NCBI GenBank assembly: GCA_938009745.1
Contig: CALLII010000029.1
Location: 1 to 40,922 of the forward strand
Source of the DNA: an uncultured Flavobacteriales bacterium
GTDB lineage: Bacteria > Bacteroidota > Bacteroidia > Flavobacteriales_D > CAJJDF01
Length of the DNA: 40,922 nucleotides
Direction: 5' to 3'
Shown here: positions 3,459 through 16,219 of the stretch, one piece after another
How the letters are laid out: every line of letters starts with the position of its first letter
Position numbering within the stretch: position 1 is the first letter of the stretch
Position numbers and translations under genes: made by a program
The notes under the pieces: generated by a model
The model's input: the letters and a program-made list of their open reading frames with translations, nothing else
Databases searched by the model: none
Told to the model about the DNA's origin: nothing

Positions 3459-4247
3459 CTATTTCTTAATCGCTACTAATGAATAAACCATTGGAAGCTT
3501 GTCTCCGTGATGTTTAAATCGGTATTTACCTTTTTCAAACTCATTTAAATTCTGAAAACAATTATAAGGTGAATAATCGTATTCATCAAATTCTATTGTT
3601 TGTAAACTGTTGTTTTTTAAAGAATTAAAAATTTCTCCTAAGCTGTGGTTCCAAGTAACACAAGTCTCTTTTATATCGGCATTTTTGTCAGTGTAGGTTC
3701 CCTCCTCTTCTTCAATAATTGGATCGGAATTGAAATAACAGTAAGCAACTTTTTCTACAGCATCATCAAACATCCACATTGCTGGGTGAAATTCTGCGAA
3801 AACAAACTTCCCTCCTGGTTTTAAAAAATGAGAAATTACTTGAGCCCATTTATTAGAGTCTGGCAACCAGCCCACAGTTCCGTAACTTGTGAAAACTAGA
3901 TCGTATTTCTCGTCATGAATATTTGGTAAATCATAAACATCCGAACAAATAAAACGAGTTTCAACTCCCATTTGTTTGGCTAAATTTTGAGCTTTTTCAA
4001 TAGCTAAATCAGATAAATCTACTCCTGTGACTTCTGCTCCTAGTTTGCTTAACGAAATGCTGTCTTGCCCAAAGTGACATTGTAAATGAAGAATTTTCTT
4101 ACCTTTTAAATCTTTCAGAAACTGCAACTCAATTTCATTCAAAGAGTTTCCTGTTTTCTTAAAATTCTCATTGTCATAAAAATCCGAATCGTAATGTACT
4201 TCGGTTCGTTTATTCCAAGATTCTTTATTGATTTTTAGGTAATCCAC
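3459..4247 (-). CDS. Class I SAM-dependent methyltransferase
   Basis: KKILHLQCHFGQDSISLSKLGAEVTGVDLSDLAIEKAQ motif I; YDLVFTSYGTVGWLPD. Confidence 0.85.
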   Translation of the reverse strand: MDYLKINKESWNKRTEVHYDSDFYDNENFKKTGNSLNEIELQFLKDLKGKKILHLQCHFGQDSISLSKLGAEVTGVDLSDLAIEKAQNLAKQMGVETRFICSDVYDLPNIHDEKYDLVFTSYGTVGWLPDSNKWAQVISHFLKPGGKFVFAEFHPAMWMFDDAVEKVAYCYFNSDPIIEEEEGTYTDKNADIKETCVTWNHSLGEIFNSLKNNSLQTIEFDEYDYSPYNCFQNLNEFEKGKYRFKHHGDKLPMVYSLVAIKK

Positions 4248-15557: not shown

Positions 15558-15620
15558 GGGCCAGTAGCTCAGCTGGATAGAGCACTCCGATTTTTATCGG
15601 AACGGTCAAATGGAGATTGA
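15558..15620 (+). pseudogene. Truncated/degenerate tRNA-like copy (5' two-thirds of a tRNA, no T-arm or 3' acceptor strand)
   Basis: GGGCCAGTAGCTCAGCTGGATAGAGCAC is 26/28 identical to the intact tRNA-Arg downstream. Anticodon arm replaced by palindromic TCCGATTTTTATCGGA; no matching 3' acceptor strand. Confidence 0.7.
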
Positions 15621-15670
15621 CATTGAAATAAACTGATTATCAATTAGCAAAGTGCTAATTTAAATATATC

Positions 15671-15744
15671 GGGCGCGTAGCTCAGCTGGATAGAGCACCT
15701 CCCTTCTAAGGAGGCGGTCAAAGGTTCGAATCCTTTCGCGCTCA
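15671..15744 (+). tRNA. tRNA-Arg (anticodon TCT)
   Basis: GGGCGCG..CGCGCTC acceptor stem, D-arm GCTCAGCTGGATAGAGC, anticodon arm CCTCC-CTTCTAA-GGAGG (TCT), T-arm AAAGG-TTCGAAT-CCTTT. Confidence 0.95.
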
Positions 15745-15753
15745 CTACAAAAA

Positions 15754-15780
15754 AGCTTCAGTTTTACTGAGGCTTTTTTT
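15754..15780 (+). terminator. Intrinsic terminator after tRNA-Arg
   Basis: aGCTTCAGTtttACTGAGGCttttttt hairpin plus U tract. Confidence 0.75.
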
Positions 15781-15794
15781 ATGCCCAAAAGATT

Positions 15795-16046
15795 ATGTTC
15801 TATACTTATATTCTTTATAGCGAATCAATTGACAAATTCTATATCGGTCACACAAGTAATTTAGAAGAAAGAATAGCTCGACACAACAGAGGTGGTGAAA
15901 AATTCACTTCTAAAGGACAGCCATGGAAGCTATCCTATTCCGAAAAATTTGAAACTAAAATACTGGCTAATAGCAGAGAAAGACAAATCAAAAAATGGAA
16001 AAGTAGAGTTATGATTGAGAAATTAATCGACAACTCAGCTGAATAG
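15795..16046 (+). CDS. Small GIY-YIG nuclease family protein
   Basis: MFYTYILYSESIDKFYIGHTSNLEERIARHN: GIY-YIG signature (YTYIL..FYIG). 83 aa; C-terminal ..DNSAE* is encoded by a tRNA D-arm-like sequence. Confidence 0.88.
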   Translation: MFYTYILYSESIDKFYIGHTSNLEERIARHNRGGEKFTSKGQPWKLSYSEKFETKILANSRERQIKKWKSRVMIEKLIDNSAE

Positions 16047-16150
16047 AGTATTCCGATTTAAATCGGAAAGATCAAAGGTTCGTCTCGACCTAGGAAGTGT
16101 AAGATTTTTGAAAAAAAAATCAACATTTGCTTTGTCGGGATCGCGCTCAC
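16033..16150 (+). pseudogene. Degenerate, interrupted tRNA-like copy overlapping the 3' end of the GIY-YIG ORF
   Basis: aCTCAGCTGaATAGAG (D-arm), perfect palindrome TTCCGATTTAAATCGGAA at the anticodon arm, ATCAAAGGTTCG (variable/T-arm), ~50-nt insert, then TCGCGCTCAC (tRNA 3' end). Confidence 0.65.
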
Positions 16151-16219
16151 TAATAAACTCTATATAATTTTCAACCTAATAGGTTAATTTAATGATACCT
16201 TTAGTTAATTAAGAATATT

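Follow-up and report, generated by a model that had tools for sequence, protein, structure and literature searches.

The locus at positions 15558-16152 of the window (the whole stretch of 40,922 nt of DNA from an uncultured Flavobacteriales bacterium that was analysed) raises the question of whether an intact tRNA gene, two broken copies of it and a small nuclease gene together form a selfish unit bound to tRNA genes. The preliminary description of this DNA had listed a 5' copy, an intact tRNA-Arg(TCT), a terminator, an 83-aa GIY-YIG ORF and a 3' copy, and all of these parts, each on the + strand, were confirmed by ARAGORN, PF01541, alignments and folding. The 5' remnant (15558..15610) corresponds to nucleotides 1-52 of tRNA-Arg, with an alignment score of 55.7 (best of 500 shuffles, 28.2; z 13.2), and appeared as a 31-nt repeat of 94% identity in the repeat comparison of the window. 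Its anticodon arm is replaced by the perfect hairpin TCCGATTTTTATCGGA (15586-15601). The intact tRNA-Arg(TCT) called by ARAGORN (15671..15745) is separated from the nuclease ORF by an intrinsic terminator (15749..15780; fold -15.7 kcal/mol, z -5.8), which was not among the calls of a simple terminator scan of the window, probably because its T-run was taken up into the stem. The nuclease ORF (15795..16046) matched PF01541 with an E-value of 5.5e-18, and it is the only ORF of at least 60 aa between tRNA-Arg and the 3' remnant. This second remnant (16034..16150), which covers nucleotides 11-75 of the tRNA, scored 45.0 (best of 500 shuffles, 31.9; z 9.4, and z 12 in another alignment run) and overlaps the end of the ORF. 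As had been claimed, the final codons AAC TCA GCT GAA TAG belong to its D-arm, and the stop falls at tRNA position 21. The perfect palindrome TTCCGATTTAAATCGGAA (16051..16068) occupies its anticodon-arm site, the same place as in related units, and alignment and folding revealed a hairpin-bounded insert in its T-loop (16082..16141) with the ends TCTCGAC and GTCGGGA. The copies had been described as decayed; they are indeed partial, but mere decay does not describe them, as in both the anticodon arm has been replaced by a perfect hairpin.

The window nuclease contains the fold domain and the conserved Tyr, Gly, Arg and Glu positions by which members of the GIY-YIG superfamily are recognised, and residues Y5, Y16, G18, R26, H30 and E62 were invariant in the alignment columns of 19 tRNA-linked relatives. 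It is a bare catalytic domain of about 80 aa, without a separate DNA-binding domain. The nearest solved structures by profile were those of UPF0213 (1zg2, E 2e-14; 1ywl, E 2e-12), the SLX1 structures 7cq2 and 4xlg were matched with an E-value of 5e-8, and NCBIfam gave no match to the nuclease. In the tree, the UPF0213-like paralogues of the same genomes formed a clade apart from the tRNA-linked nucleases. The window protein had no match at 1e-5 in phage records and matched the homing-endonuclease profiles of PHROG only weakly, while the matches of the family consensus to phages were weak and belonged to ordinary GIY-YIG genes, one of which was inspected and had no annotated tRNA nearby. A scan of viral sequences confirmed no relative, and the plasmids yielded one weak match, from Sphingomonas. 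The protein encoded downstream of the locus in the window had no orthologue in close relatives, its matches being to its C-terminal domain only.

The association of such genes with tRNA genes was followed in three samples, consisting of 60 relatives, 80 named contigs and 396 genomes drawn evenly from the same phylum. In the 60 relatives, the small GIY-YIG genes split into two kinds in the tree. On the window's side, a same-strand tRNA was located upstream of 36 of the 56 genes and just downstream of 5, and 4 started at a contig edge; 2 further tRNA-linked genes branched near the other, UPF0213-like side. None of the 26 genes of this UPF0213-like sister clade was linked to a same-strand tRNA. 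The named contigs came from Saprospiraceae, Flavobacteriaceae, Crocinitomicaceae, Chitinophagaceae, Bacteroidales, Ignavibacteria, Balneolaceae, several Patescibacteria, Verrucomicrobia and others, and showed a same-strand tRNA within 120 bp in 54 cases and within 500 bp upstream in 8 more, with 8 genes at a contig edge and 10 with none near. Among 29 new loci from the 396-genome sample, 25 were linked, 3 lay at a contig edge, 1 was unlinked and none had a tRNA on the opposite strand. By our estimate, from about 40 tRNA genes and about 3000 genes, chance would place roughly 1% of genes in this way, and the strong enrichment bears out the suggestion of the preliminary description that small GIY-YIG ORFs be sought near tRNA genes. 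The broader family had at least one match in 252 of the 396 same-phylum genomes and up to at least 14 per genome, the tRNA neighbour having been checked for part of these matches. The window's own genome (2.5 Mb, 165 contigs) contained a second unit, in which a GIY-YIG gene begins 65 bp after tRNA-Pro(TGG) (L002; G000:C10:28588-28806) and is cut by the contig end, as expected of a repeat that breaks assemblies. An assembly artefact was rejected, since units and arrays were found in the single-contig genomes G007 and G696 and in many independent assemblies.

Comparison of the units showed a main form in which intact tRNA, terminator and ORF are followed by a fragment of that tRNA; the ORF started 25-110 bp past the tRNA in 72 of 86 units. 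A significant cognate fragment was present beyond the ORF in 65 of 82 units and usually reached the 3' nucleotide of the tRNA; in most of the units whose fragment was clear, it matched the neighbouring tRNA better than other tRNAs, and in several units a second copy of the terminator followed the fragment. In the mirror form, seen at 13 named loci, the ORF was preceded by a 5' tRNA fragment and closely followed by the intact tRNA. Both forms occurred at the same tRNA within one nuclease clade, namely for Asp (Aquimarina and Eudoraea), Arg-CCT (L052 and L177) and Leu (L139 and L181). The tRNA-derived stop regions that had been looked for were also found, with the ORF stop located inside the fragment in 44 units, often using the TAG at tRNA position 8 or the one in the D-loop. 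Many remnants kept their D- and T-arm sequence and had the anticodon arm exchanged, many lacked the 5' acceptor strand or had a broken T-loop, and some units contained no recognisable hairpin or remnant. ARAGORN called the remnants L291 and L157 tRNAs with a stop anticodon, and the "tRNA-Gln(CTG)" of L138 resembles a tRNA-Leu whose anticodon arm is damaged. The earlier claim that the unit spreads by partial tRNA duplications was right in that partial copies are a regular part of it; it was incomplete in that the copies carry hairpins and the intact tRNA can stand on either side of the nuclease. As read from the sequences, the unit is one bare GIY-YIG gene plus part of its host tRNA, with an apparently functional tRNA remaining and the broken copy on the nuclease's other side.

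In many fragments, hairpins of the type TCCCGAT(n)ATCGGGA had taken over the site of the anticodon arm and often that of the T-loop, with second T-loop hairpins observed in L019, L175, L208 and L210. Among unit windows of 150 bp, 60 of 95 contained hairpin motifs of this kind, compared with 113 of 1872 background windows. The place of the hairpin was fixed within each clade, as in GAG-[hairpin]-TTAAYC of the Asn units and GCA-[TCCCGA..TCGGGA]-GGGTC of the Val units. Among Asn units of different genomes, seven hairpins varied in sequence and retained 48 of 49 outer pairs, a value reached in 80 of 100,000 whole-arm shuffles for a set that is small and made up of related members; independent insertion at a hotspot may have produced this pattern. 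The two members of a tRNA-Phe pair were identical in fragment and hairpin and 84% identical in their ORFs, and an Aquimarina pair was similar. When the hairpin was cut out and the fragment realigned automatically, which is a weak test, gains of at least 8 were obtained in 18 cases versus 8 in the control.

A palindrome confined to the units was ruled out, as CCGATAGCTATCGG and TCCCGAT..ATCGGGA occurred in 0-47 copies per genome, also away from tRNA loci. In the 60-genome sample, G044 contained 47 copies of TCCCGAT..ATCGGGA, the next genome 22 and most genomes 0-8. Palindromes of the same type were present also in genomes in which no unit was found, and by hand count they were commoner in unit-bearing genomes (about 24 of 34, versus 6 of 26). 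Furthermore, CCGATAGCTATCGG was found in the loops of other hairpins (L123, L127, L128 and L136), which belong to terminators and to apparent RNase P RNA, and insertion into hairpin loops may be a general behaviour. In the window, two more CCGA..TCGG hairpin motifs were observed at 4184 and 10264, with no tRNA gene near. At about 1374-1530 of L237, a 5' fragment of tRNA-His with a palindrome in its D-loop lies beside the intact tRNA-His, and no GIY-YIG gene was noticed there; it is perhaps a relic, or a hairpin step without the nuclease. In the units, the hairpin may be a blocked cut site or a substrate of the nuclease.

Presence and absence of the nuclease gene could be compared at three orthologous loci, and the empty-site alleles that the preliminary description had proposed to seek in relatives were found at all of them. 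In the relatives G002 and G005, the tRNA-Arg locus orthologous to that of the window had the same gene upstream and was empty, the 5' remnant being absent as well, and the tRNA-Arg of the empty G002 allele was identical to that of the window. The tRNA-Asn locus beside an MscS-like gene contained the unit in G003 and a plain tRNA in the window's genome and in G001, while the nuclease at the G002 tRNA-Asn locus was decayed, with an in-frame TAG. At this G002 locus (L247, G002:C94, about 1050-1450), the 3' end of tRNA-Asn is all that is left of the tRNA before the decayed nuclease. In genus g10, 2 of 30 tRNA-Phe loci were filled, and four of the empty ones shared 86 bp of tRNA and flank exactly. 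The nuclease gene is present in some genomes and absent from others at the tRNA-Arg, tRNA-Asn and tRNA-Phe loci alike, which is the variation by which homing-endonuclease genes are recognised. Tandem arrays occurred in many genomes, the longest consisting of five identical units of 315 bp in the single-contig genome G696. Decayed nucleases were found adjoining intact ones, which would resemble the life cycle of homing genes.

The relationship between the nuclease and the tRNA was examined on a tree of 96 linked nucleases, in which the tRNA labels required 42 changes, compared with 69.4 after shuffling (a number as low as 42 arose in 0 of 200 shuffles); the set holds a few near-copies (L008 = L150, one contig), which inflate the clustering somewhat. 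The Asn clade, for example, comprised eight units from several families. The match of clade to tRNA may partly reflect vertical inheritance at orthologous loci. At the level of sequence, tRNA linkage, cognate remnants, empty sites, arrays, clade-tRNA matching and hairpin substitution are established.

A well-described system with similar features is SegB of the T-even phages, a free-standing GIY-YIG homing endonuclease whose gene lies beside tRNA genes and which cuts inside them (PMC13096335, which cites Brok-Volchanskaya et al. 2008). The tRNA-nuclease segment is amplified in tandem by recombination of the tRNA 5' region with the 3' region of the SegB gene, and the SegB motif is RAWTSGAAC (PMC13096335). 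When we compared this motif with the tRNA, it read as the complement of the T-arm. The bacterial units share with SegB a GIY-YIG gene adjoining tRNA genes and tandem tRNA-nuclease arrays; they differ in being chromosomal, in a nuclease of about 80 aa without a further domain, in having one cognate tRNA and in their hairpin-substituted remnant. By this likeness of arrangement, the units would belong with the free-standing homing endonucleases and may work as SegB does.

We consider it reasonably probable that the window locus belongs to a widespread family of minimal selfish units, which are anchored to tRNA genes and resemble homing endonucleases. The tRNA-linked, selfish or mobile nature of the unit named in the preliminary description is well supported; its targeting of tRNA genes, in the sense of cutting them, is suggested by the SegB analogy and the clade-tRNA match. 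The nuclease genes usually lie beside their cognate tRNA, which would be the target site, and we infer cleavage of tRNA genes and movement of the unit as follows. The nuclease would cut or nick a cognate tRNA gene that is still free of the unit; the probable site is the anticodon arm or the T arm, at which the remnants have their hairpins. The break would be mended by homologous recombination with a unit-bearing copy, the 5' and 3' parts of the tRNA and the terminator serving as homology arms, and the unit would thereby be copied in. The hairpin would mark the cleavage region and render the remnant copy uncuttable, and a second cutting beside the unit could give rise to tandem arrays, as for SegB in phage T6. 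The host would survive perhaps owing to low expression of the nuclease behind the terminator, which the ORF follows so closely that almost no room is left for a promoter. Several points speak against this reading. The intact tRNA retains the presumed target, so that the host should be expected to cut itself unless expression is low, and the protein is a bare catalytic domain whose nearest solved kin are UPF0213 and SLX1 rather than homing enzymes.

It is because of this kinship that structure-guided cutting is the main rival, which we regard as a less likely alternative. The nuclease would then spare intact tRNA genes and recognise the hairpin remnant as a cruciform or single-stranded hairpin, as its SLX1 relatives do with their substrates; the remnant would be the end of the element, and tRNA genes would be reached via homology or by their own cruciform shape. 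UPF0213 and SLX1 as structure-specific nucleases, the clade-fixed hairpin positions, the 48 of 49 pairs kept in the Asn units and the tRNA-Phe pair with its unchanged remnant and hairpin all point in this direction, as do the palindromes in other RNA hairpin loops and their greater frequency in unit-bearing genomes. However, same-type palindromes also occur in unit-free genomes, some units lack a recognisable hairpin or remnant, and the covariation set is small and related.

The nuclease could also be idle, with the region behind a tRNA acting as a tolerated or transcribed niche and the pattern arising from rare tandem duplication and horizontal transfer of tRNA loci. Tandem direct repeats recombine unaided, and insertions in bacteria commonly occur at the 3' ends of tRNA genes. 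This explanation is unlikely in view of the other GIY-YIG genes of the same genomes, which stay outside the niche (0 of 26), the cognate remnants and repeated hairpin substitution that accompany dozens of tRNA species across many families, and the catalytic positions kept in the linked nucleases. A toxin-antitoxin-like arrangement, in which the tRNA or its gene is the target of the nuclease and the transcribed, hairpin-armed remnant is a restraining decoy, would fit the match of nuclease clade to tRNA identity and the many remnants with D- and T-arm kept and the anticodon arm swapped. We consider it very unlikely, as the 5' acceptor strand is missing or the T-loop broken in many remnants, the units occur as decayed relics and multi-copy arrays, and we know of no RNA-cleaving GIY-YIG nuclease.

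The units can be compared with further known systems. UPF0213 proteins share the small bare GIY-YIG domain and are the closest solved relatives by profile, whereas the UPF0213-like paralogues form a separate clade with none beside tRNA genes. SLX1 has a related GIY-YIG domain; it carries further domains, works with a partner protein and is found outside mobile units. In genomic islands and integrative elements that integrate at tRNA genes, a tRNA 3' fragment likewise borders the inserted DNA and an intact tRNA is re-formed, but the present units are 300-400 bp long, lack an integrase, have the GIY-YIG ORF as their sole gene and contain a hairpin in the fragment. REP sequences are also short dispersed palindromes of low copy number, some in hairpin loops, whereas the palindromes of the units are at set places in tRNA remnants beside a GIY-YIG gene, and the REP-associated transposase is absent. 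In the open-licence literature, our searches turned up no account of GIY-YIG units linked to tRNA genes on bacterial chromosomes, which does not by itself prove novelty. A further-reaching reading, conceivable though doubtful, places the units in an entirely new class of mobile elements: with a single gene and a length of about 300-400 bp, each would use a structure-specific GIY-YIG nuclease as its transposase and the hairpin-substituted, tRNA-derived sequence as its element end. Such a unit would spread between tRNA genes across phyla, Patescibacteria included, leaving a working tRNA each time, and the TCCCGAT..ATCGGGA palindromes would belong to the same machinery.

In annotation, the units yield false tRNA calls and tRNA-derived protein C-termini. 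If the homing-like reading is true, the match of clade to tRNA would provide natural DNA-cutting domains, about 80 aa in size, that differ in their presumed targets, and many genes whose annotation says no more than "GIY-YIG nuclease family protein" would be selfish units on essential tRNA genes. The units would moreover give rise to tRNA fragments and tandem repeats and cause assemblies to break at tRNA loci. They would then be among the smallest mobile units known and a cellular counterpart of phage SegB.
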